Origin: a virus
Virus record (IMG/VR): IMGVR_UViG_3300046008_000242
Location: 62,001 to 126,000 of that record
Length of the DNA: 64,000 nucleotides
Reading direction: 5' to 3' (one strand)
Positions within the stretch are counted from its first letter, which is position 1. Each line of letters begins with the position of its first letter. Under the pieces are notes generated by a model, which was not told the DNA's origin, searched no databases, and saw nothing but the letters and a program-made list of their open reading frames with translations. The position numbers and the translations under genes were made by a program. Shown piece after piece: positions 17,164 through 57,168 of this stretch.

Positions 17164-18354
17164 CTAATTCATATAGAATTTATCAACGGTATGTTTCAAT
17201 AATTTTTCTAATGCAATTTGTAATTCTAGCACATTTAAACCCCTTTTCCACTTTCTATCCACTTCCATTATACCAGTATAATTTGTTATATTATAAAAAT
17301 CCTTGATTTCTTTGATATATGAAATCAAGGATCGTTTATCATCTATTGATTTAAACACAGAACTAATCTCGTTTATTCTATATTCATATTCTTTTATCTC
17401 GATTTTACGCTCATCTAAATATTTATAGAACTTGACTGATCCTTCCTCCAGTTTTTCATCATCGACTTGTTTCCAATTAGAGTTATTAATCCCCATAATT
17501 TTACTTGGGTTGGTGACATTATATTTTTCTATATCATCTAGAATTTGTAGGACTAATGGTCTAGTAAATTTTATTTCCAAGATATGTTTCCTTATTTCTT
17601 TACATTCTGGAGTTTGCATATTACTAATGTAACCAGTTTTCTTAAAATTGGTATCTTTACCCTTTTGGATGCATTCTGGAGTTTGAGATGGAGTATAATA
17701 TCCAGTTCTTTCAAAACATGTATCTTTACGTTTTTGGATACATTCTGGATTTTTCATATTATGTGTATATCCGGTTTCCTCAAAATAACTTTGAGAATAT
17801 TGTTCTCTTAATTTCGGATTAGCTAAATTACTAGTGAATCCAGTTTTCTCAAAAACGATATCCTGTCGGGTTTGGATACGTTTTGGGTCTTTCATATAAT
17901 GAGTATATCCAGTTTTCTCAAAATGCGTATTTCTACATTTTTGGACACATTCTGGATTTTTCATATGATGATATGCACTTATTGATATCTTCAACTCTTC
18001 ATATTCTTCTTCGTTGATAAATTTATGTTTACCATCGGTGCATAATCGTCCAAATGCATGAATCATCTTAGCGTGTAAATTACGGGTTAATCCCATCTCT
18101 ATTAACAATTGGTGACATCTGTAATGTTCTCTTGCTGATAGATAGGCATAATTCAATTTATCAGTCACTCCACCCATCTTGAATGATCTAGGTAATATAT
18201 GATGTTCTTCTGCGTACCCTAAAATTACATCCGCTTCTTTTTTAGTGGATGCTCGAATCCTGGCATTAGATACGATGGAGATATACTCTGCTGTTTGTTC
18301 ATTATCTGAACATAATTCGATTATTTTATCGATATAGATATTATTGCTGGTCAT
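17164..18354 (-). CDS. HNH homing endonuclease with tandem ~25-residue DNA-binding-like repeats, copy 1
   Basis: 396 residues. The HNH site is in the N-terminal part: EEHHILPRSF (49-58), LNYAYLSAREHYRCHQLL. From about residue 130 to 270 run about six ~25-residue repeats (NPECIQKRKDTCFERTGY and variants), like the KxxxTxxExYG repeats in other phage HNH proteins. A unique C-terminal domain follows. AGGAATTTT precedes the ATG. The leader has a hairpin (18379-18408) and a TAAATAA motif, suggesting late expression. It abuts the PhoH remnant and is paralogous to the split copy at 21433-22760. Such enzymes cut DNA lacking the element and spread by repair. Confidence 0.8.
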   Translation of the reverse strand: MTSNNIYIDKIIELCSDNEQTAEYISIVSNARIRASTKKEADVILGYAEEHHILPRSFKMGGVTDKLNYAYLSAREHYRCHQLLIEMGLTRNLHAKMIHAFGRLCTDGKHKFINEEEYEELKISISAYHHMKNPECVQKCRNTHFEKTGYTHYMKDPKRIQTRQDIVFEKTGFTSNLANPKLREQYSQSYFEETGYTHNMKNPECIQKRKDTCFERTGYYTPSQTPECIQKGKDTNFKKTGYISNMQTPECKEIRKHILEIKFTRPLVLQILDDIEKYNVTNPSKIMGINNSNWKQVDDEKLEEGSVKFYKYLDERKIEIKEYEYRINEISSVFKSIDDKRSLISYIKEIKDFYNITNYTGIMEVDRKWKRGLNVLELQIALEKLLKHTVDKFYMN

Positions 18355-18926: not shown

Positions 18927-19844
18927 ATGGAAATTATATGTGAATCAGAATTTGGTTCTAGATTGTATGGGTTATCCACTCCAGAATCAGACTATGACTA
19001 TAAAGGTGTCATCTTACCAACTAGAGATGAAATCTTACTTGGAAGAACATCTTACCATATCGATAAGTCAACTAATACCAGTTCAACAAAAAACTCTAAA
19101 GATGACGTCGACAGAACCTATTACTCGTTACAATACTTTATTGATATGGCATGTAAGGGAGAAACTGTAACCTTAGACCTCCTCCACGGCAGTCCTGATA
19201 AATTATTACATGAATCTGATATGTGGAGATTCATTGTATCTAATCGCCATCGGTTCTATACAAAGAGTATGAAATCATACATTGGTTACGTCAGAAAACA
19301 ATCAGCCAAATATGGAGCCAAAGGTTCTAGACTTGGTGAGATCGAACGAGTATTAAATGTAATCAATAACATGAAAGATTCTCAGACTGTATCTGATGTT
19401 GAATTAAAGGAATCAGATGTTGTAAGATGGATTGATTATAAGGATAACAGATATTTGGAGGTTTGTGGTAGTAAATATCAAGACAATCTTAAATTGGTTC
19501 ATCTGAAGAAATCATTACAGAACCATTATGATATTTACGGGGAACGATCCAAATTAGCCAAACAAAATGAAGGTGTAGATTGGAAGGCATTGTCCCATGG
19601 ATTTCGTGCTGGTATCCAAGCAAGAGATATTTACTTGAAAGGAGGGTTTGAATATCCGTTGGCAGAATCGAAGTTTCTTTTGGACGTAAAACAAGGTAAG
19701 ATAGACTTCAATGTATTTGAACCAATGTTAGCCGAATTGGTTGAAGAAGTTACATTATTGGCTGGTAAATCAGATTATCCAGAAACTGTTGACAGAACGT
19801 TCTGGGATGATTTCATTAGAGAATGTCATTTAACTAGATTTTAA
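18927..19844 (+). CDS. Nucleotidyltransferase, RlaP-like (DNA polymerase beta superfamily)
   Basis: 305 residues. The N-terminus reads ESEFGSRLYGLSTPESDYDYKGV: the GS motif (GSRLYG, residues 10-15) and paired acidic metal ligands (SDYDYKG, 21-27) of the pol-beta nucleotidyltransferase fold, in the arrangement seen in the RlaP RNA-repair family. The C-terminal helical part (SHGFRAGIQARDIYLKG, PLAESKFLLDVKQGK) also fits. It probably adds nucleotides to an RNA or other acceptor. A ~55-bp fragment of a similar gene (GERSKLxKQNE) is stranded at 21322, showing past duplication. It heads a run of small genes to 21264. Confidence 0.75.
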   Translation: MEIICESEFGSRLYGLSTPESDYDYKGVILPTRDEILLGRTSYHIDKSTNTSSTKNSKDDVDRTYYSLQYFIDMACKGETVTLDLLHGSPDKLLHESDMWRFIVSNRHRFYTKSMKSYIGYVRKQSAKYGAKGSRLGEIERVLNVINNMKDSQTVSDVELKESDVVRWIDYKDNRYLEVCGSKYQDNLKLVHLKKSLQNHYDIYGERSKLAKQNEGVDWKALSHGFRAGIQARDIYLKGGFEYPLAESKFLLDVKQGKIDFNVFEPMLAELVEEVTLLAGKSDYPETVDRTFWDDFIRECHLTRF

Positions 19845-21432: not shown

Positions 21433-22760
21433 CTAATTCATATAGAATTTATCAATAATATGTTTCAATAATTTTTCTAATCCATTTTGTAATTTTATCA
21501 CATTTAATCTCGTCCAGTTTCTGCTATTCGTTTCCATTATAACAATATGATTTGTTATGTTATAAAAATCCTTGATTTCTGAGATATACGAAATCAAGGA
21601 TTGTTTATCATCAGTGTATTTCAATGTAGAATTAATCTCGTTTATTCTACATTCGTATTCCTTTATCTTAATTTTACGTTCATCTAAATGTTTATAGAAC
21701 TTAACCGAACCTTCATATAGTTTTTCATAATCGACTTGTCTCCAATTAGGTCCATTAATTCCCATAATTTTTCTTGTATCGATAACGTTATATTTTTCTA
21801 TGTCTTGTTGAATCTGAAGAACTAATGGTCTAGCATATTTTATTTCCAAGATGTGTTTCTTCTTTTCTTTACATTCTGGAGTTTTCATATGATGTGTGTA
21901 CCAGTTTCCTCAAAACACGTATCTCTACGATTTTGGATACATTTTGGATCTTTCATATAATGAGTGTACCCAGTTTCCTCAAAACTAGAATCTCTGCGAT
22001 TTCGGATACATTCTGGATTTTGCATAGGATGATTGTATCCAGTTTTCTCAAAATACGTATCCTGACGCTTTTGGATACATTCTGGATTTTTACCAGGATT
22101 ATCGTATCCTGTTCTAGCAAAATGGGTATCTCTACTCTTTTGGATACATTCTGGATTTTGCATATTATGCGCGTATCCAGTTTTCTCAAAATATATTTGA
22201 GAATATTGTTCTCTTAATTCTGGATTGGCAAAATTACTAACATATCCAGTTTTCTTAAAATGGATATCTCTACTCTTTTGGACACATTCTGGATTTTTCA
22301 TATGATGAGTGTATCCAGTTTTCTTAAAATGGGTATCTCTACTCTTTTGGACGCATTCTGGATTTTTCATATGATGATATGCACTTATTGATATCTTCAA
22401 CTCTTGATATTCTTCTTCGGTCATGAATTTATGTTTACCATCTACGCATAATAATCCAAATCCGGAAATCATCTTAGCATGTAAATTACGTTTTAATCCC
22501 ATCTCTATTAACAGTTGATGGCATCTGTAATGTTCCCTTGCCGATAGATATGCATAATTCAATTTATCTGTTTCTCCACCCATCTTAAATGATCTAGGTA
22601 ATATATGGTGTTCTTCTGTATAACCTAAAATTGATTTTGCTTCTTTTTTAGTGGATGCTCTGATTCTGGCATTAGATACGATGGAGATATACTCTGCTGT
22701 TTGTTCATTATCTGAACATAATTCGATTATTTTATCGATATAGATATTATTGCTGGTCAT
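21433..22760 (-). pseudogene. HNH homing endonuclease copy 2, split by a one-base deletion
   Basis: This paralogue of 17164-18354 has an almost identical N-terminus, including HHILPRSF and EHYRCHQLL, and about eight ~25-residue NPECIQK..DT.FEKTGY repeats, two or three more than copy 1. Near 21900 a base is missing compared with the other repeats (GTGTACCAG against GTGTACCCAG). The first frame ends there at 21885 after 291 residues; the C-terminal domain continues in a second frame (21433-21888, 151 residues). It could be dead, an assembly error, or functional as an N-terminal fragment with HNH site and repeats. The upstream leader is shared with copy 1. Confidence 0.7.
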
Positions 22761-31741: not shown

Positions 31742-31909
31742 ATGCCAACTCCGTACATTAAGAAAGTAGCCGATATATATAACAAACCCATAGAAGATGT
31801 CGAGAGATTATGGGATAAAGCCAAAGAATCCGTTGGTGATGAAAACAAAGAAGATTATGCTTTAATTACTCACATATTCCATAAAATTGTCAAATCTCAT
31901 TATGCATAA
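31742..31909 (+). CDS. Conserved small T4-like protein
   Basis: 55 residues: MPTPYIKKVADIYNKPIEDV, ERLWDKAKES, then EDYALITHIFHKIV. This pattern (short protein with 'EkLWDKAK' and 'Y..it.IFkkMv') recurs in T4-like phages without known function. AAGGATAAAATAG upstream. It overlaps the methyltransferase start. Confidence 0.6.
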   Translation: MPTPYIKKVADIYNKPIEDVERLWDKAKESVGDENKEDYALITHIFHKIVKSHYA

Positions 31910-32954
31910 ATTCAATTATAATTGGAAGTTATCTGAAACTGAATTTACAAAAGATAAGTTCAAGGTATTCTCTTGTTTCGCTTGTTGTGGTGGTTCTACG
32001 ATGGGTTATAAACTTGTTGGTGGGAATGTTCTTGGTTGTGTAGAAATAGATCCAAGAATGAACAAAGTTTATAATGATAATCATCATCCAAAGTATAGTT
32101 TCCTAGAAGACATTAGGGAATTCGTCAAAAGAGATGATTTACCAGAAGAATTATACAATTTAGATATCCTTGATGGTAGTCCACCCTGTTCTAGCTTCAG
32201 TATGAATGGTAATAGAGATAAGGATTGGGGTAAGGAGAAGATGTTCTCCGAGGGTCAAGCCAAACAAGTGTTGGATACATTATTCTTTGATTTTATTGAA
32301 CTTGCTAAGAAATTACAACCAAAAATTGTTATCGCAGAAAATGTGAAAGGATTGATTCTTGGTAAGGCATTAAAATATGTTGACAGGATCTATAAAGAAT
32401 TTGATGAAGCAGGATATTATTGTCAACATTTTCTATTGGATGGTTCCAAAATGGGATTACCACAACGGAGAGAACGTGTATTCTTTGTCTGTCTAAGGAA
32501 GGATCTAGGTGAACCGTTCTTGGAATATAAAGGGTTAGAATTAAAACCAAGATTGATAATGGAATTTGATGAACCAATTATACCATTTAAAGATATATCA
32601 GAAGATGAAGTATATCCTGACAAAGAATTAGAACCATCAATAAGAAAATTATACCCATTGGTTAAACCAGGAGATGGATTTGATAAGGCTGAATTATCCA
32701 ATGGTAATTTCTTTTCGTATAAGAAATTACATCCAGATAGACCATGTAATACATTAACAACTGGTAAATCTTGTTTTCATCATGTCATCCCAAGAAGAAT
32801 GACAGATAAAGAATTTATATTGGCAAGCTCATTTCCATTGGATTTCAAATTTGGTGATGTTAAACCAGATTATGCTTGTGGTATGTCTGTACCACCAATT
32901 ATGATGGCAAACGTTGCGTCTAATGTATATGAACAATGGTTGAAACACCTTTAA
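31902..32954 (+). CDS. DNA (cytosine-5) methyltransferase
   Basis: 350 residues from MHKFNYNW (an upstream TTG lies inside the previous gene). The C5-MTase motifs are in order: FSCFACCGGSTMG (motif I), GSPPCSSFS with nucleophile Cys96 (IV), ENVKGL (VI, ~146), QRRERVFF (VIII, ~188), and a late motif X region. It would methylate cytosines in phage DNA, giving protection from restriction or marking. No partner restriction enzyme is seen nearby. The recognition sequence cannot be told. Confidence 0.92.
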   Translation: MHKFNYNWKLSETEFTKDKFKVFSCFACCGGSTMGYKLVGGNVLGCVEIDPRMNKVYNDNHHPKYSFLEDIREFVKRDDLPEELYNLDILDGSPPCSSFSMNGNRDKDWGKEKMFSEGQAKQVLDTLFFDFIELAKKLQPKIVIAENVKGLILGKALKYVDRIYKEFDEAGYYCQHFLLDGSKMGLPQRRERVFFVCLRKDLGEPFLEYKGLELKPRLIMEFDEPIIPFKDISEDEVYPDKELEPSIRKLYPLVKPGDGFDKAELSNGNFFSYKKLHPDRPCNTLTTGKSCFHHVIPRRMTDKEFILASSFPLDFKFGDVKPDYACGMSVPPIMMANVASNVYEQWLKHL

Positions 32955-38345: not shown

Positions 38346-38799
38346 AAAAGTATTGATATACGCAGACGGTGCTTGTAAATCTAATGGCAGAGAAAACTCT
38401 AATGGTGGTTGGGGTGCTGTTATGTCATATAAAGGTATCGAGAAGGAAATCTGGGGTGGTGAACGCAATACAACAAACAACAGAATGGAATTACTTGCTG
38501 TAATAAATGCATTGGAATTACTGAAACGACCATGTCCTGTTAGTATATTTTGCGATTCAAAATATGTTTTAGACGGAGCATCCTCTTGGATTAAAGGATG
38601 GAAACGTAATGGTTGGAAGACTGCATCTAAACAACCAGTTAAGAATGAAGATCTATGGCGTCGATTAGATGAAACAATGTCATTACATGAAATTGAATTT
38701 GTATGGATTAAGGGACATAATGGGCATCCAGGAAATGAACGAGCAGACGCATTGGCTAACAAAGGATATTATGAATTGATTGAAGGGTTATATGACTAA
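38338..38799 (+). CDS. rnhA: Ribonuclease HI
   Basis: 153 residues, same size as E. coli RNase HI (155). The four catalytic acidic residues are present: D10 (IYADGAC), E51 (NNRMELL), D73 (FCDSKYV), D137 (NERADALA), with the conserved [15 protein letters not shown] loop. It degrades RNA in RNA-DNA hybrids. It joins the T4-type RNase H at 23026, so this phage has two unrelated enzymes for primer removal. Overlaps both neighbours. Confidence 0.93.
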
Positions 38800-39700
38800 T
38801 CTATTTGATGATGAATATATCATGTTAGATGAATTCAGGAAGTTCTCATTCCAACATATAGCATTAGGTGATGTAGACCCTATCTATACCATGATTAGAA
38901 ATTCTGAATTATCTGATAATGAGAAGAAACGTCTGATATTCTCCAATCTGATGGTATATGATTTAAAACATTCAATTAAACTTACTTCTATACCAGACGA
39001 CCAGTATTATGACTATGTAAAAATGTTATTCACTGAAGCCAAAGTCGGCAAAGATAGAATTGATGTGGCATCAAGAGAAACTAATGTCAAATCAAGAAGT
39101 TATAACACTCAGATAGATAAAATGAGATGTAATACCCCAGAACAATGGATAGATAATGTATTACAGAATACTGTCGATTGGAACACTTCTATTGAATCCG
39201 CAAAGATGATACCAACATTTGGAGAATACTTTGCATTTAAAGTTGCGGATATGGTAGAGTCTATCTTTGATATGAATTATACAGTAAAATGGGATGATTC
39301 ATTTAGAAGAACAATACCAAAGGGTTCATTATCTGGTTTTGAATTGGTTAAGACAGGATCTGCAACCAAACATCGTTCATCTGAACAGATTAGACAAGAT
39401 CCTTTATTAGAACAATTCTTCTTGACTGAATTGGAATTCTTCAAGGACTATAAATGTCCACATAATCCAACAAGATGTATTGGAGTCACCGAGATTGAGA
39501 CATTCCTATGTGATTTTAGAAAGACATTTAAAGGAACATTAAATAAAGGAGATAAGGTGTTGAAACTAAAATCTGCGTTAGAATTTAATGTTGGTTCTGA
39601 TATAGCAGATAAATTGAAATCATCTGTTGATAATCTTATTGATAGAAGAGCAAAATATATTGATGTTAATGTAACCGAAAACGAATGTGAGAAATTATAA
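38792..39700 (+). CDS. Putative helical domain protein of a 5-hmdU DNA kinase / thymine pyrophosphorylase-like system
   Basis: 302 residues from MTNLFDDEY (GAAGGG upstream). EFRKFSFQH...DP at the start, [18 protein letters not shown] at 140-156, [18 protein letters not shown], and a Cys set C222-C229-C240 ([13 protein letters not shown]) resemble the glycosylase-like helical proteins known from thymine-hypermodifying phages (HMUDK helical domain or alpha-glutamyl/putrescinyl thymine pyrophosphorylase). The next gene, overlapping by one base, is a P-loop kinase with matching motifs, which supports the reading. The match is by remembered pattern only; an unrelated helical protein is possible. 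Confidence 0.45.
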
Positions 39701-40248
39701 TGAGAAAAGTTATTGCTGTATGTGGAGTTCCAGGAACAGGTAAATCTACGTTATTCAGAGAATTTATGAAGACATCTACTTGGGAACGAACAATCCCAGC
39801 CAAATTGGTTGATTCTGAATACTCCAAGGAATTGGATATGTATATCTTGGGAAAATATGATGATGGTGAAGTGTTTGCAGGTACGGACCGTCTTTCTATG
39901 GCCGTATCACCAGAAGTTGAGAAATTACTGAGAGTTACGACATCTAATGTGATGTGGGAAGGTGATAGATTGACTGGTAATAAATTGTATTCATTTATCT
40001 CAGATAATTTGACTTATGATGTTGAATTTCATATTATTGTAATCAAAGCAGAACAATCAATTCTGAATGCTAGATATGAAGAACGCGGTTCTAATCAACC
40101 AGAACAATTCTTGAATTCAAAGGAAACCAAAATCAATAACATTTTGAATAATTTTGAATTGACAGAATTTGTTACGGAATTCAAAAACGAAACGAAAGAA
40201 GACCAATTAAAAATCTTAGAATTTATTAAATCAATTTTGGATAGATAA
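39700..40248 (+). CDS. P-loop nucleotide kinase, 5-hmdU DNA kinase-like
   Basis: 182 residues. Walker A GVPGTGKST (9-17); GTDRLSMAVSPEV (61-73) and MWEGDRL (85-91) are segments I associate with phage 5-hydroxymethyl-dU DNA kinases, which phosphorylate hmdU in DNA as the first hypermodification step. LNARYEERG is a plausible lid. It overlaps the helical protein gene by one base (TAATG-type), pointing to a complex. If the function holds, a dUMP hydroxymethylase should exist in the phage; the altered ThyX at 53648 is the only candidate here. Confidence 0.5.
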   Translation: MRKVIAVCGVPGTGKSTLFREFMKTSTWERTIPAKLVDSEYSKELDMYILGKYDDGEVFAGTDRLSMAVSPEVEKLLRVTTSNVMWEGDRLTGNKLYSFISDNLTYDVEFHIIVIKAEQSILNARYEERGSNQPEQFLNSKETKINNILNNFELTEFVTEFKNETKEDQLKILEFIKSILDR

Positions 40249-41755: not shown

Positions 41756-43222
41756 ATGTTATCGTTCAACCAATATAAAACTTCATTACAGGAATCAACT
41801 CATTATAGAGTTGGTAAAAATGGATTTGATGCAATTAGAAATCAATTTCTGAACAATTCGCATGTTAATACATTACTGAATGTATTACAACCATATGCGT
41901 CCAAATTACACCTTAAAATCATTGATAACAAAATCACAAACAATATCCATTTTTCCATTGTGGATGATTTTCAATCAATCAAAAGAATGTATGATTCTAT
42001 CTCCCATATTGGCGTCGAACATATCATCGAAGATAAGAATTCAATCAAATTTAGAACTGGTGATGTAAATTTCACATTCTATAAATCTGGTGGAGGATTC
42101 AAACGAATCATCGATGAAGACGGTAATGAATTGGTAAATAATAAACCAAGTTCATATCAACACGAAGAAGCCATTGTCTATATCCTAAATGCATTTCCTG
42201 AATATCCAACCAAAACTCAAATCAATAAAAACATCGGATTTGAATTTGACGATACATGGTTCTTATCATTCAAAGAAACATACAATGCCATCGGCAGAGT
42301 AATTGATATTCAATCTTATGAATTCTATAGAGATTCTGATAAGAATAAATTACAAATTCTTTCGTTGATGACTCAATCCAAGTATCTACCAGATTCTAAG
42401 GATAATTGGAATCCATCTGATGTATGGGCAATCAATAAACATAACAAGCAAAATGTAATTGATACCATCTCAGAAACTCTATACAGAATTGAGACTGGTA
42501 GAGCGGACGTATATGATTTGAACGATACAATCAAACATCTATTTGATACAAGACAATTAATCGGTTTCTCCTTGAAGAAGGTTGTTGCTCCGCCATCAAA
42601 TCTAGTGTCTGAATCTGTTTTAAATGAATTTGCAAAGATCGAGAAAGTTGAAGTGGATTACAATTATGTTGATAATGTCTACTTCGATAAACCATTAAAA
42701 ATGTTCAAATTTAATGATACCTTATCATATATCGACATGTATTGTAATATGAAGGAATTTGGTAAAGATTACAGTTACATGTTTAGATTGGCTCCAAGAG
42801 GTAAGAGTAATGATTTGAATGTATATTGTCAAGGTTCTGGCGACTACAATAAATCAAGTTGGGATGGTAGTAGTTCGAAGGCTCTGATTAACAAATTGAC
42901 TGATTTTAAGATTCCTGAATTCAAAGATTATGTCGATTACCAATTAAATGTTGAATCTAATGTATGGAAGACGTTAGATGTTGTTGATTCAAGATATTCA
43001 CATTTTATCGATTATGTTAAACACAATAGATTTATATTCATCGATTGTCAGATGTTGGAAACGGAACAACCAGAAAATCAATACATGATTAAACGTTGTC
43101 TTGTGTTATTACATTTCTTATATTGTTTAGAACAAACCAATATGACAGAATCATTAAAGATGTTATGTCTGTCATCAAAGAAACAAAATCATTTCAGCTC
43201 GGTGTTCTATAAAATTTCATGA
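41756..43222 (+). CDS. Conserved T4-like virion-associated protein
   Basis: 488 residues. The start MLSFNQYKTSLQES is the type of N-terminus shared by many T4-like phage proteins thought to be packaged or head-associated. Middle motifs DNWNPSDVWAINKHNK and LIGFSLKKVVAPPSN match a family of unknown function in T4-like phages. No enzymatic motif is visible. AAAGGGAATAAA upstream. It forms its own unit, ended by the terminator at 43228. Confidence 0.5.
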   Translation: MLSFNQYKTSLQESTHYRVGKNGFDAIRNQFLNNSHVNTLLNVLQPYASKLHLKIIDNKITNNIHFSIVDDFQSIKRMYDSISHIGVEHIIEDKNSIKFRTGDVNFTFYKSGGGFKRIIDEDGNELVNNKPSSYQHEEAIVYILNAFPEYPTKTQINKNIGFEFDDTWFLSFKETYNAIGRVIDIQSYEFYRDSDKNKLQILSLMTQSKYLPDSKDNWNPSDVWAINKHNKQNVIDTISETLYRIETGRADVYDLNDTIKHLFDTRQLIGFSLKKVVAPPSNLVSESVLNEFAKIEKVEVDYNYVDNVYFDKPLKMFKFNDTLSYIDMYCNMKEFGKDYSYMFRLAPRGKSNDLNVYCQGSGDYNKSSWDGSSSKALINKLTDFKIPEFKDYVDYQLNVESNVWKTLDVVDSRYSHFIDYVKHNRFIFIDCQMLETEQPENQYMIKRCLVLLHFLYCLEQTNMTESLKMLCLSSKKQNHFSSVFYKIS

Positions 43223-46668: not shown

Positions 46669-47532
46669 ATGAGTAGAAAATCTATACCACATGTACACAA
46701 AATGAAAGATATTGATTTCATTAATGCATTAAAATCAATTAAACAAAATGGCGGAAATCTAAAGGATATTCCTGTCATGTTAAAAATTGATGGATTTGGA
46801 TTCACTATTGGTAAAGATGCATATGGATACAAATATGTTAAAACAAGTAATTCTGGTAGAATCTACCATCCAACCGAATTCTTGGATTATATACAAGATT
46901 GTAACATCAATGACCCAATTAGAATCAAACGAGCAGAACAATATAAGAAATTGGCTGATTTCTTTATATCTGACGTTGTATCTCCATTAGATAAACTACC
47001 AAATAATCATTCCATTAAAATGGAAGTGTTTGTTACTGATATGGGTGAAGTCATTGGTGATTATATCAAATTTGTGCATATTGCTTACCCTAAATCAGTA
47101 ATTGGTTCTGAATATACATTCTTTCCGCATTCGGTGTATGAATCTGGTGGTGCATTTGTGTCGGATAAATCACCCGAGATTATTGAAACATGTTTTAGAG
47201 GGTTTGAATATGGTGACCAATATGTTACATGGAATCCAACAATATCATTCAAAGATGTTAACATTGTAAAAGAATTATCATGGGTATTTGAAGCGTTAGA
47301 CATACCAAATCTTGAACGAATCATTGTATCCAGGAAGAAATCTGACAAGGAACAAAAAGAATCAATTAAACATGTATTACAAGAACGTAAAGATTTATTT
47401 TCAGACTTCTTAATCTCTAACGCAAATAACACTGATAGATTAGGCGAATTATTTGAAGGAATTATCTTTGATGTCGATGGTAAATCATATAAGATAACTA
47501 CTTCAGAATTTAAGGAATTGATGAAACAATGA
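46669..47532 (+). CDS. ATP-dependent ligase-fold protein
   Basis: 287 residues from MSRKSIPHVH (GAGAGG 8 nt upstream; an ATG at 46663 is too close). KIDG (residues 39-42) is nucleotidyltransferase motif I with the candidate AMP-bearing Lys39; IKMEVFVTD fits motif III/IIIa, and EGIIFDVDGKSYKI near the end fits motifs IV-V. This is the DNA/RNA ligase superfamily, in a small form seen in T4-like phages next to a cytidylyltransferase, as here. With PseT it could complete an end-healing/sealing pathway. Confidence 0.65.
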   Translation: MSRKSIPHVHKMKDIDFINALKSIKQNGGNLKDIPVMLKIDGFGFTIGKDAYGYKYVKTSNSGRIYHPTEFLDYIQDCNINDPIRIKRAEQYKKLADFFISDVVSPLDKLPNNHSIKMEVFVTDMGEVIGDYIKFVHIAYPKSVIGSEYTFFPHSVYESGGAFVSDKSPEIIETCFRGFEYGDQYVTWNPTISFKDVNIVKELSWVFEALDIPNLERIIVSRKKSDKEQKESIKHVLQERKDLFSDFLISNANNTDRLGELFEGIIFDVDGKSYKITTSEFKELMKQ

Positions 47533-48071
47533 AAACATTAGTCTGTTCATTTGGTAGATGTAATCCTCCCCATAAAGGTCATTTCTTGTTGATTGGTAAG
47601 ATTAAAGAATTGGCAAAACAAAATAATGCGGATTCTGTTATGTTCTTATCGCATTCGGAAGATAAGAAGAATCCTTTACCGTATGATTTGAAATCGAGAT
47701 TGATGAATAAATGGTCTGATGGATTGGTAAAGATAGATTATGATAATAAAGTCAAACAACCCATGAATCTGTTACATTATGTCAATGAGAATTTATATGA
47801 ACGAGTTATCATTGTATGTGGAGAAGATAGACACCAAGAATATTCTAATAGAGTAAATTTGATGTTATCAACAAGAGATTATTTTGAATTTAAATCTGTT
47901 GAAATTGTATCAAGAGGCGAACGATTTGGAATAGGACCGTCATCATATTCTAGTTCCAAGATGAGAGAATTTGTTAGAAATAATGATAAGAATTCGTTTT
48001 ATTCATATCTACCTCATGAATGTTCGTTTGATGAAGCAAATGAAATATGGGATTGTTTAATCAATAAATAA
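47529..48071 (+). CDS. Cytidylyltransferase-like nucleotidylyltransferase
   Basis: 180 residues. GRCNPPHKGH (9-18) is the HxGH-type ATP-binding motif and SSSKMRE (~140) the SxxxxR/ISSTxxR motif of the nucleotidylyltransferase (NMNAT/CTP:phosphocholine) superfamily. The substrate is not clear; NAD-pathway use is one option. The start overlaps the ligase stop (ATGA). Confidence 0.8.
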   Translation: MKTLVCSFGRCNPPHKGHFLLIGKIKELAKQNNADSVMFLSHSEDKKNPLPYDLKSRLMNKWSDGLVKIDYDNKVKQPMNLLHYVNENLYERVIIVCGEDRHQEYSNRVNLMLSTRDYFEFKSVEIVSRGERFGIGPSSYSSSKMREFVRNNDKNSFYSYLPHECSFDEANEIWDCLINK

Positions 48072-51734: not shown

Positions 51735-51904
51735 ATAAAACTACGTCTGCCAATGTTTATTATTCTCTTAGAGGAGACGCGACACACTTTGACAGTAATG
51801 TGATGATTTTAGAATTACCAAAGATGGTAAACAAACTAATCCACCAAAACAATATAGTAAAAATAAGAAACCTAAGAAATGGTGATTCATGTCGTTGTAT
51901 ATAG
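51731..51904 (+). CDS. Small ORF, possibly frame-broken, upstream of primase
   Basis: The ATG overlaps the membrane protein stop and gives MNKTTSANVYYSLRGDATHF, running out-of-frame into primase. An alternative frame after ~51800 reads DFRITKDGKQTNPPKQYSKN and ends KKPKKW at 51885, just before the primase ATG, and looks more protein-like. A one-base indel near GTAATGTGATG would join the two. Low certainty. Confidence 0.35.
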   Translation: MNKTTSANVYYSLRGDATHFDSNVMILELPKMVNKLIHQNNIVKIRNLRNGDSCRCI

Positions 51905-52902
51905 ATAAGAAATACATCCATCTGTTCTCATCTTCCATGCGCAACTTCCGAAAGATAAATGAGGAAACATGGAAGATGAGTTGTCCTATCTGTGGTGATT
52001 CAAAAAAGAACACAAAGAAGGCGAGAGGATTCATCTATACTGTTAAAAATGATATGTTCTATCGTTGTTTCAATTGTAGTTACTCCACCACATTTGGTAA
52101 TCTGTTGAAAGAAGTCAATCATCTATTGTATTCTGATTATATTGTGGAACGATACAAACAAGGTGTTAATAAACATAGATCCAATAAGACAATTGTGATT
52201 CCAGAATCAACTCAAAAGTTTTCTGAATCTTCAATCTACAATTCGAAGATTCTATCTCAATTAACACCAGTTGTTGAATCTAAAGAAGCAGTTGAGTTCC
52301 TAACAAGGCGACAGATTCCAAAAGATAAATGGAGTCTGTTGTATTACACCACACAATATAAGAAATTGATAAATTCAATTTTACCAGAGAAATTTGATTC
52401 TGAATTAGATTCACCTAGAGTTGTCATTCCATATTTCAACCAACAAGGTTATATCTTCCAATTAACAGGTAGAGCAATCGATAACAATTTCATGAGATAT
52501 TCTAATATCAAATTGATGGAAACGGATTACCCTGTATATGGTTTAGAACGGGTGGATCTATCCAAAAAGATATATGTTGTGGAAGGTCCTATTGATTCAT
52601 TGTTCCTAGATAATTGTATTGCCGTATCTGGATCCGCGTTCAACAGTAATGCGTTCTTAAAGGAACATAAAGAAGATGTTGTATTGGTTTATGATAATGA
52701 ACCAAGATCAATTGAAATAATGAAATTAATGGAAAACAGTATTAAACATAAATTTCATGTATGTATATGGGACAATAAGATACAACAGAAGGACATCAAT
52801 GAGATGATTATGGCAGGAGTGGATGTTAAACGTATTATAGATAATAATACGTTTGTAGGAGCAGAAGCTCTAATGAAATTTATAACATGGAGGAAATGTT
52901 AA
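51889..52902 (+). CDS. 61: DNA primase, T4 gp61-like
   Basis: 337 residues (T4 gp61: 342). N-terminal zinc finger CPICGD (C32, C35) with CFNC (C60, C63); TOPRIM motif VVEGPIDSLF about residue 225 and LVYDNEPRS for the second acidic pair. It lays RNA primers for lagging-strand synthesis with the gp41 helicase, which is not in the window. Confidence 0.92.
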   Translation: MSLYIDKKYIHLFSSSMRNFRKINEETWKMSCPICGDSKKNTKKARGFIYTVKNDMFYRCFNCSYSTTFGNLLKEVNHLLYSDYIVERYKQGVNKHRSNKTIVIPESTQKFSESSIYNSKILSQLTPVVESKEAVEFLTRRQIPKDKWSLLYYTTQYKKLINSILPEKFDSELDSPRVVIPYFNQQGYIFQLTGRAIDNNFMRYSNIKLMETDYPVYGLERVDLSKKIYVVEGPIDSLFLDNCIAVSGSAFNSNAFLKEHKEDVVLVYDNEPRSIEIMKLMENSIKHKFHVCIWDNKIQQKDINEMIMAGVDVKRIIDNNTFVGAEALMKFITWRKC

Positions 52903-53647: not shown

Positions 53648-54229
53648 ATGAAAGTTGAATTATTATTTGTGACACCAAACGCCGAAGAATTCTTGGGTAT
53701 TGTTGCTGGAGAATGTTATGGCGCAGATATTTCTGATACGGAAAAAAACATTAAAAGAGCAAGTCATTGTTCATCAAAAGGTCATCTAGCTGTATTACGA
53801 TTCGCTCATGCTGTATTTAGAATCTCGGATATCTCAAGAGTGTGTTCACATCAGATGGTTCGTTCTAAACATCTTGACTTCCTACAGAAGAGTCAACGAT
53901 ACACAAAATCTGATGTATCTGAATTGCTAGAATTAGAAGTTCCACCATTTTTTGAAACATCAGAAGAAGTATCTATTGTATTAAAAGAAGCATTAGAACA
54001 TTCTTATACACAATATGATAAATTATTATCATTGGGTGCCAAGAAAGAAGACGCTAGAATGGTGTTACCAAACTTCTCTCCAACATCATTAAATGTTGTC
54101 GGTAATTTCCAAGCATGGTTAGATTTTATCAAATTAAGAAATACCAAAGAAGCTCAATATGAAATTAGATTAGTTGCTCAAGAAATTGAACGTCAATTGA
54201 AAGAAGTTGCTCCTAATTTATTCAACTAA
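53648..54229 (+). CDS. thyX: Flavin-dependent thymidylate synthase ThyX, altered signature
   Basis: 193 residues. Overall ThyX layout: ASHCSSKGHLAVLRFAHAVF, SRVCSHQMVRSKHLDFLQKS, QRYTK, MVLPNFSPTSL and NFQAWLDFIKLRN. The family signature RHR-x7-S reads R72-S-K-x7-S82: the His and second Arg, which contact FAD and dUMP, are replaced. The serine and spacing are kept. ThyX methylates dUMP to dTMP with FADH2 and methylene-THF. The change may be tolerated, lower activity, or alter the product. Upstream dCMP deaminase would supply dUMP. Confidence 0.85.
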   Translation: MKVELLFVTPNAEEFLGIVAGECYGADISDTEKNIKRASHCSSKGHLAVLRFAHAVFRISDISRVCSHQMVRSKHLDFLQKSQRYTKSDVSELLELEVPPFFETSEEVSIVLKEALEHSYTQYDKLLSLGAKKEDARMVLPNFSPTSLNVVGNFQAWLDFIKLRNTKEAQYEIRLVAQEIERQLKEVAPNLFN

Positions 54230-54457: not shown

Positions 54458-55447
54458 ATGAGCGTTCCTCATATCAAGGAAAAAACGGAATCAATGGTTA
54501 TCCATTATCCTGAAGCAGAAGAATTCACTAATGAACAACTAAAGATCTTCTGGCTACCAGATGAAGTTAAAGTTGAAAAAGACGTTCATGATATTCTCAC
54601 TGGTTTCACTGAATCTGAAAAACATGGTGTAATCACAACATTACGTCTGTTCACATTATATGAATTACATGCAGGTCAGAATTTCTGGACAGGTAAATTC
54701 ATGAAGATTTTCAAACGTCCTGAATTAGCTGCCATGGGTGCTACATTTGGTATGTTTGAATTGGCAATCCATCGACCATTCTATAATAAAATCAATGAAT
54801 TACTTCATCTTAACACAGATGAATTCTATTTGGATTATGTAAATGATCCAACATTGAAAAGTAGAATGGAATTCATCGAGGATGTTATCTCAAACAAACA
54901 TGAATTGTTGGCATTAGCAGGATTCAGTATGGTAGAAGGTGCCGTCCTGTATAGTTCTTTTGCATTCCTTAAACATTTCCAATCAAATGGTAAGAACAAA
55001 CTCAATAACATTGTAAGAGGTATCAACTTCTCAATTAGAGATGAAGGTTTACATTCATTGGCTGGTAGTTGGTCATTCAAGACATTAAAACGTCAGATGA
55101 AATTGAACGCCGAAAAAGAAGCTTCTGTTAAGGAATCCGTCATCGAATTGGCTCATGTAATTTATGAACATGAATCTAGAATTGTTGACATGATTTTTGA
55201 AAAAGGGAATATGACTGGTATTTCTAAAGAATCATTAAAGATTTTTGTTAAATCCAGATTAAATGAATGTTTGATTCAATTAGGTTATGAAGGTGTATTT
55301 GAGATACAAGAAAACTTAATTGCAGATTATTTCTATGACGGTTTGAAAAAATATTCATTCAACGATTTTTTCGCGGGGATTGGGAACGAGTACAATAGAG
55401 CTTGGTCTGAGGATGATTTTTTATGGACACTTGAAGGGAATGCATAA
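54458..55447 (+). CDS. nrdB: Ribonucleotide reductase small subunit NrdB
   Basis: 329 residues. Metal ligands can be traced: E69 (YELHAGQNFW), E101 and H105 (GMFELAIHRPFY, with Tyr109 as possible radical Tyr), EGAVLYSSFAF, and RDEGLHS. The E-x3-H spacing differs from the E-x2-H of E. coli NrdB and fits a subgroup I know from marine phages and bacteria. It makes the radical needed by NrdA for dNTP production. Overlaps nrdA by one base (TAATG). Confidence 0.92.
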   Translation: MSVPHIKEKTESMVIHYPEAEEFTNEQLKIFWLPDEVKVEKDVHDILTGFTESEKHGVITTLRLFTLYELHAGQNFWTGKFMKIFKRPELAAMGATFGMFELAIHRPFYNKINELLHLNTDEFYLDYVNDPTLKSRMEFIEDVISNKHELLALAGFSMVEGAVLYSSFAFLKHFQSNGKNKLNNIVRGINFSIRDEGLHSLAGSWSFKTLKRQMKLNAEKEASVKESVIELAHVIYEHESRIVDMIFEKGNMTGISKESLKIFVKSRLNECLIQLGYEGVFEIQENLIADYFYDGLKKYSFNDFFAGIGNEYNRAWSEDDFLWTLEGNA

Positions 55448-57168
55448 TGAGCGAAAATTTATATAACGATCTATCTGTTAAACGTAAAGAATTACAAACA
55501 AAAGGATATCTTCCTGAATGGTTTATTACTCCTGGATTACAATTATGGGAGGAGAAGTATGAACACGATACAGAAACATCTGTAAAAGGACAATTTGGAC
55601 GTATCGCTAGAACAGCTGCTTCTCATTTGCCGGAATCAATTAGACAATTAGCAAATGATAAATTCTTTGAAATATTATGGAAAGGTTGGTTATCTCCTTC
55701 TACTCCAGTTATGTCAAACATGGGTACAAATAAGGGTTTAGTTGTTTCATGCGCGGGTTCTGTAATCGATGATTCTATTGATGGTTTCTATTCTTCATTA
55801 AGAGAATCTGCATTATTGACAAAATATGGATTTGGTACATCATCATATCTTGGCGACATTAGACCAAGAGGAACTCCTATCGCTGCTGGAGGATTGGCAT
55901 CAGGGGTGGTTCCGGTATTCGAAGATTTCGTTAACATGACCAATAAAGTCACGCAAGGTACAAGTCGTCGAGGTTCATGGGCTGGTTATCTTCCTATGGC
56001 TCATGGAGATTTTGATGAATTGTTAGACCATATTTCGGCGAATCCAGATGGTTCTAATGTTGGTTGGAACTTATATGATAAAGATGTTGGTAATTTGAAT
56101 AGAGGAGAACAAGAAATTAATCGACGTTGGAAAAGAACCATGAAAACAAAAATGGTCAATGGTTCTGGATATTTCTTCTTTCCTGATAAAGCTAATAGAA
56201 GAGTTCCTGAATGTTATAAGAAACTTGGATTAACAGTTAAAGCCAGTCAATTGTGTAATGAGGTGGTTTTGGCTTCTGGTGTAGATCCAACAGATAATGA
56301 AAAAATCACATTTTCTTGCGTATTATCATCTATGAATGTTTCTTGGTATCATGATTGGAAAAATACAGATGCGGTTTATTGGGCCACGATTTTCTTAGAT
56401 TGCGTTGCTGAAGATTTCATCCAAAATGCAAAAGATATTAAAGGGTTAGAACAAGTCGTAAGATTCACTGAAAGAGGTAGAGCCATAGGGATGGGTCAAT
56501 GTGGCTTACATACATTATTCCAAGAAAATAATATTCCATTTGAATCATTAGATGCACATTATCTGAATATGGAAATTGCTGAACATATCCATAAAGAAGC
56601 AAATAGAGCATCTGAATATCTAGCCGAATTGTTAGGTGAACCAGTTTGGTGTAAAGGAACAGGAAAACGTAATACACATCTAATCGCCGTTGCTCCAACA
56701 AAAAGTTCAGCTCTTATCCAAGGTGGAGTTTCTGAAGGTATCAATCCATATCCTTCTAACACTTATGTCCAACAGACTGCTGCTGGTGAAGTTAATCGAG
56801 TAAATCCTACTTTATTGAAATTGATGAAATCGCGTAATGTATATAATGATGCTACGTTACAATCAATTGTTGATAATTTTGGTTCTGTCCAACAAGTTGA
56901 TTGGTTAGATGACCATGAGAAGAAAGTATTTAAGACCGCATTCGAGATCGACCAAAATATATTGATTAGATACGCGTCTAATAGAGCAAAATACATTGAC
57001 CAATGGCAATCTGTGAATTTGTTCTTTAGCGCAAATGCCGATCCAAAGTATATTTCTTCTGTGCATCAGAAGGCATTTAATGATGAAAACATTCTAGGAT
57101 TATATTACATTTACAGTTCTGCGCATGATTCGAGTTCTACTCCAGTTACATGTGAATCCTGTCAATAG
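55447..57168 (+). CDS. nrdA: Ribonucleotide reductase large subunit NrdA (short class I)
   Basis: 573 residues, much shorter than E. coli NrdA (761): the N-terminal ATP cone is lacking, so dATP feedback is not expected. Conserved parts: STPVMSNMGT, VVSCAGS (first redox Cys), QLCNEVVL (active-site C-x-E), ITFSCVLSSMN (second redox Cys), SEGINPYPSNTYVQQTAAG. The C-terminal CESCQ is the thioredoxin-reducible tail. It reduces ribonucleotides with NrdB. Confidence 0.93.
   Translation: MSENLYNDLSVKRKELQTKGYLPEWFITPGLQLWEEKYEHDTETSVKGQFGRIARTAASHLPESIRQLANDKFFEILWKGWLSPSTPVMSNMGTNKGLVVSCAGSVIDDSIDGFYSSLRESALLTKYGFGTSSYLGDIRPRGTPIAAGGLASGVVPVFEDFVNMTNKVTQGTSRRGSWAGYLPMAHGDFDELLDHISANPDGSNVGWNLYDKDVGNLNRGEQEINRRWKRTMKTKMVNGSGYFFFPDKANRRVPECYKKLGLTVKASQLCNEVVLASGVDPTDNEKITFSCVLSSMNVSWYHDWKNTDAVYWATIFLDCVAEDFIQNAKDIKGLEQVVRFTERGRAIGMGQCGLHTLFQENNIPFESLDAHYLNMEIAEHIHKEANRASEYLAELLGEPVWCKGTGKRNTHLIAVAPTKSSALIQGGVSEGINPYPSNTYVQQTAAGEVNRVNPTLLKLMKSRNVYNDATLQSIVDNFGSVQQVDWLDDHEKKVFKTAFEIDQNILIRYASNRAKYIDQWQSVNLFFSANADPKYISSVHQKAFNDENILGLYYIYSSAHDSSSTPVTCESCQ

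Follow-up and report, generated by a model that had tools for sequence, protein, structure and literature searches.

A phage ThyX carrying RSK in place of the RHR signature: a predicted dTMP synthase whose FAD-phosphate pocket is probably remodelled

The 64,000-nucleotide stretch of viral DNA analysed here (the window) carries at positions 53648–54229, on the plus strand, a thyX-type gene whose 193-residue product reads RSK where ThyX proteins are recognized by RHR. We consider it probable that this protein functions as a dTMP synthase in which the pocket for the FAD phosphates has been remodelled. According to this reading, the enzyme would turn dUMP and methylene-tetrahydrofolate into dTMP for phage DNA synthesis. 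The histidine and the second arginine of RHR and an arginine of the partner subunit (residue 190 in Mycobacterium tuberculosis, Mtb, ThyX) would have been lost from the FAD phosphate/ribityl pocket, and a new arginine, R51 at the position of Mtb Glu74, would together with Lys74 of the window protein retain the positive charge there. Both FAD binding by the new residues and dTMP as the product are inferences. Most likely, this ThyX is not the source of the modified DNA bases of the phage.

The gene call draws on the open reading frame, on profile models and on relatives of the protein. The reading frame begins with ATG just downstream of an AGGAAA-like ribosome site, and its product matches the Thy1 family PF02511 with an E-value of 5.7e-42 (144.1 bits, cut-off 24.8) and the NCBIfam thyX equivalog TIGR02170 with 122.3 bits (cut-off 87.9), while Thy1 is the only Pfam-A family matched below an E-value of 0.001. 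PF02511 was likewise matched by all 28 members of the RSK clade that were scanned. An AlphaFold model, for which 28 window and clade sequences served as input, reached a mean pLDDT of 87.8, and its top structural matches are ThyX structures, with a Z-score of 19.2 over 187 residues and an rmsd of 2.6 Å for Mtb ThyX (2gq2) and a Z-score of 18.3 for the Thermotoga maritima enzyme. Family models and fold are thus those of ThyX. Since the literal RHR-x7-S is replaced by RSK-x7-S, we file the protein as a variant and not as a canonical member of the family.

RHR serves as the hallmark by which ThyX, itself under study as a target for antibacterials, is recognized, and the literature treats it as highly conserved. 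In the window protein the signature reads R72-S73-K74-HLDFLQK-S82, as the preliminary description had recognized, with the triplet (codons at 53861–53869, plus strand) aligning to R95-H96-R97 of Mtb ThyX and the x7-S spacing unchanged. A review of solved structures (PMC6514825) describes bonds from RHR to the phosphate of the AMP part of FAD and to the ribityl and phosphate groups of its FMN part, with Ser71 and Arg190 (Mtb numbers) from another subunit joining in these FAD contacts. The first arginine of the triplet also holds the flavin ring (PMC6514825 and PMC11940539), and in T. maritima this residue, R78, which corresponds to the retained R72, is described as holding flavin N1/O2 (PMC11940539). 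Alignment to Mtb ThyX places two further substitutions, R51 (codon 53798–53800, plus strand) for Glu74 and Q155 (codon 54110–54112, plus strand) for the FAD-contacting Arg190. The earlier statement that, apart from two signature residues, the family pattern is unaltered therefore holds for the triplet and the spacing but not for these two positions. The altered signature residues are FAD contacts and neither dUMP nor catalytic residues.

The residues for catalysis and dUMP binding are all in place. H46, S82, R84, Y85, R137 and R164 of the window protein align to Mtb H69, S105, R107, Y108, R172 and R199. The codon of H46 (T. maritima H53; role in PMC11940539) lies at 53783–53785 and those of S82-Q83-R84-Y85 at 53891–53902, both on the plus strand; the latter include the equivalents of T. 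maritima S88, R90 and Y91 (roles in PMC8316439 and PMC11940539), which according to PMC8316439 are important for the step that consumes the flavin carbinolamine. Since the altered sites are FAD contacts and the catalytic and dUMP-binding residues are kept, the changes would affect how the cofactor is held rather than the chemistry or the binding of dUMP. The assignment of R51 to the same FAD-phosphate pocket, as a putative phosphate ligand, comes from covariation only.

This covariation became apparent in an alignment of 196 ThyX proteins that combined the RSK clade with relatives of gp9 from SP-15 and of the ThyX of Escherichia phage ManiMatter_Bas94 (Bas94), next to rows from genomes sampled in the phylum to which G061 belongs (the genome with locus L105, titled uncultured proteobacterium), five further loci and 17 comparison proteins. 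Four rows with gaps at the sites in question were dropped, leaving 192. All 42 proteins with Glu74 keep R95, R97 and an arginine or histidine at position 190, and all 150 proteins lacking Glu74 have a changed R95/R97, with position 190 changed as well in 149 of them and H190 kept in one; because the altered groups were deliberately collected and the sample is non-random, these figures show coupling and not frequency. The altered proteins retain S105, R107, Y108, R172 and R199 without exception (150/150) and H69 in 149 cases. RHR is missing from every protein without Glu74 and from two of the 42 with it; RTR and RNR forms occur among the comparison phages with Glu74 and Arg190 kept, and RHR is hence not absolute in ThyX. 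A tree of 61 rows from which the columns of Glu74, RHR and position 190 had been left out requires three losses of Glu74, three losses at position 190 and four changes of RHR. A topology that unites all altered rows in a single clade was rejected (p = 1.6e-6), and a single origin of the SP15 and Bas94 groups was compatible with the data (p = 0.50). These tree analyses show the coupled change of Glu74, RHR and position 190 to have arisen in at least two lineages.

The loss of the FAD contacts on the AMP side could also mean that dUMP is methylated with a flavin or an electron donor other than FAD and NADPH, such as FMN or a reductase of the phage or its host. The changed positions lie at FAD phosphate/ribityl contacts (Glu74 by covariation), change as a set and did so at least twice, all of which would suit such an enzyme; R51 and K74, however, keep the pocket positive, and R72 and S82 persist, as does the folate/flavin histidine H46, so that we regard this possibility as unlikely. 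The alternative of a changed cofactor use, which had been raised in the preliminary description, nevertheless fits better than the synthesis of hydroxymethyl-dUMP proposed there, since the altered residues are FAD contacts. In a broader form, the rewired set might mark a class of phage ThyX without tight FAD binding that works with another flavin or redox partner and perhaps makes 5-hydroxymethyl-dUMP in phages with modified pyrimidines. We think this rather improbable; if true, the presence of a rewired gp9 in SP-15, with a thymine derivative in its DNA, would be no accident. That the SP15-like group, one of two other groups with this rewiring, includes gp9 itself counts against our main reading, as the rewiring may have a link with unusual pyrimidines. 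On at least two occasions, whole phage lineages have exchanged RHR along with two partner positions and left the catalytic residues in place. Such rewired proteins offer a test by nature of which FAD contacts the enzyme requires, and they caution against assigning ThyX function from RHR alone.

RSK is not a chance oddity of one genome but a conserved, real variant. The 105 loci fetched yielded 77 distinct proteins, of which 76 carry RSK and one RSA, a count biased towards like sequences because the peptide patterns of the scan partly held the RS or Q155 residues; one of the scans took the best 80 of 108 relatives. The motif GHL[AS]xLR and a glutamine at the Mtb 190 position are present in 77 of 77. 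The window gene differs from its nearest relative (L001, 95% identical) at 75 nucleotides, 59 of these changes being synonymous, with a dN/dS of 0.047. Such strong purifying selection, together with catalytic residues that are intact clade-wide, speaks against a decayed or non-catalytic ThyX retained for another role, for which the altered signature and an atypical family case from Corynebacterium glutamicum, not needed for thymidylate according to the title of PDB entry 3ge9, could be cited; we consider decay extremely improbable. Although 2,213 GenBank phage records match the window protein, all are less than 60% identical, and among the 60 listed the best reaches 34% with no close relative seen. 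A scan of 84,980 species genomes gave four loci that match the clade, all in metagenome-assembled genomes. The RSK clade is viral, and since no close GenBank phage relative was seen, our knowledge of it comes from contigs of IMG/VR and these four contigs of metagenome-assembled genomes. Our literature search returned no report of a non-RHR phage ThyX or of a ThyX-type dUMP hydroxymethylase.

The genomic context is consistent with a role in dTMP supply. Directly after thyX follow, on the plus strand, nrdB (54458–55447; PF00268, E = 9.8e-44) and nrdA (55447–57168; PF02867, E = 8.4e-69) for the small and large chains of ribonucleotide reductase. A toprim/primase-like gene (51889–52902, plus strand; weak Toprim match) has a homologue with 43% identity in G047, a phage contig that also bears a homologue of the kinase discussed below, and there it precedes an ordinary RHR ThyX and nrdA. 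The gene order is similar but not identical, as three small ORFs and nrdB are interspersed in the window. The similar place of two different ThyX proteins suggests that both do the same job. A dUTPase, expected if dUMP feeds ThyX, was found in 16 of 27 RSK-ThyX records from other phages, the set also scanned for TET genes, but neither in our own record (G000) nor in G007. ThyA was sought, along with the transferase family described below, in 45 of about 88 RSK records (the larger ones, our own included), none of which gave a match over the family cut-off; a PF00303 match in G044 was sub-threshold and contained internal stops.

The preliminary description had also noted an hmdU-type kinase in this phage and had proposed that the altered ThyX makes a hydroxymethylated dUMP. 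A P-loop kinase gene, likely the one meant, is indeed present at 39700–40248 (plus strand), beside an amino acid:DNA transferase-like gene (38780–39700, plus strand) that matches PF18724 just under the cut-off (24.2 versus 26.2 bits), phrog_6364, the PDB glycinyltransferase 8z2m (E = 1.8e-4) and gene 109 of PhiW-14. Comparison of the kinase with PDB sequences and a search with the gene at 41756–43222 gave nothing useful. In a hydroxymethyl-dUMP synthase the methylene intermediate would be hydrated instead of reduced and would feed 5-hydroxymethyluracil decoration in DNA. ThyX looked like a candidate source since no protein of PF00303, which covers the ThyA fold including dUMP/dCMP hydroxymethylases, was matched up to an E-value of 10 across the 249-kb record, and the idea gained ground with the two genes of hypermodification type. 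A Thy1-family hydroxymethyluridylate synthase has also been proposed, as a proposal only, for SP-15 gp130 (PMC5977210); that protein, however, is far more degenerate, scoring 26.1 bits against Thy1 (L142:1291–2577; cut-off 24.8), and is not of the RSK type, whereas in the window protein the equivalents of S88, R90 and Y91 are intact.

Several observations weakened this candidate further. Enzymes of the TET/JBP family oxidise methylated bases on DNA. Our phage record encodes two of them by family match, both outside the window on the minus strand (G000:180408–180824 and G000:183548–184000), and a C5-cytosine DNA methyltransferase within it (31887–32954, plus strand; PF00145, E = 9.1e-45), so that hydroxymethyl groups on DNA are possible without ThyX. 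TET/JBP genes occur in all 12 tested records with the kinase (11 and Cr30, our own phage included), a test that covered nine of 17 IMG/VR kinase loci besides our own phage, Melnitz-3 and Cr30; they are absent from PhiW-14 and SP-15, searched as contrasts. The C5-methylase, TET and kinase genes are grouped together in Melnitz-3. Phages with the kinase make do with ThyA (Cr30) or an ordinary RHR ThyX (Melnitz-3, G047). Conversely, TET was found in none of the 27 RSK records from other phages and the transferase family in none of 41, absences that are weak evidence because most of these records are fragments. The four of 45 RSK records that do contain the transferase family all belong to the species-level cluster of the window, the only one among the tested records in which RSK-ThyX and TET coincide. 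In the records tested, the kinase thus goes with TET and not with RSK-ThyX, and we judge the hydroxymethyl-dUMP idea unlikely, indeed very doubtful as an account of this enzyme.

With dTMP as the predicted product of ThyX, the base-modification question in this phage shifts to TET and the C5-methylase, and the kinase is probably one of TET-made hydroxymethylated bases. A nucleotidyltransferase-like gene at 47529–48071 (PF01467 just under the cut-off) has homologues that lie close to this kinase both in Melnitz-3 (L107) and in L126, and is a candidate for a further member of this pathway. Elsewhere, the window holds a gene for a caspase-like peptidase C14 (36016–36744, minus strand; PF00656, E = 5.4e-26), two DUF7487 genes (17164–18354 and 21885–22760, both minus strand) and a gene for an RlaP-like RNA-repair nucleotidyltransferase (18927–19844; PF10127).

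When compared to the ThyX proteins of M. tuberculosis (2af6/3gwc) and T. maritima (TM0449), the window protein shares the fold, the family models, the catalytic and dUMP residues and the x7-S spacing, but has RSK for RHR, arginine for Glu74 and glutamine for Arg190, and with 193 residues it is shorter than the solved chains compared (217–270). The T4/cyanophage-type ThyX (Melnitz-3, G047: RHRSFSFQEFSQRY) is canonical in RHR and Arg190 and sits on a distant branch, although that of G047 sits in a similar setting to the window gene, near a toprim-like gene and nrdA, in a phage with a homologous kinase. The nearest parallels in the altered positions are the ThyX types of SP-15 gp9 and Bas94, known from GenBank phages and IMG/VR relatives. 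The Bas94-like KHQ and the gp9-like KYV/KYR groups (L161, L169–L202, L203–L267) share the rewiring, with arginine, serine or threonine for Glu74, triplets such as KYV, KYR and KHQ, among others, and glutamine, leucine or tyrosine at position 190; their triplet starts with lysine, unlike the arginine of the window, and they occupy the other half of the tree. SP-15 is a phage with hypermodified thymine; in the published account of it, gp9 is the proposed thymidylate synthase and the degenerate gp130 the proposed hydroxymethyluridylate synthase (PMC5977210).

A TET/C5-methylase system of DNA hypermodification in phages was reportedly described by Burke et al. in 2021. The window phage shares with such systems the C5-methylase, two TET/JBP genes, the kinase and the transferase-like gene; ThyX is no part of them.
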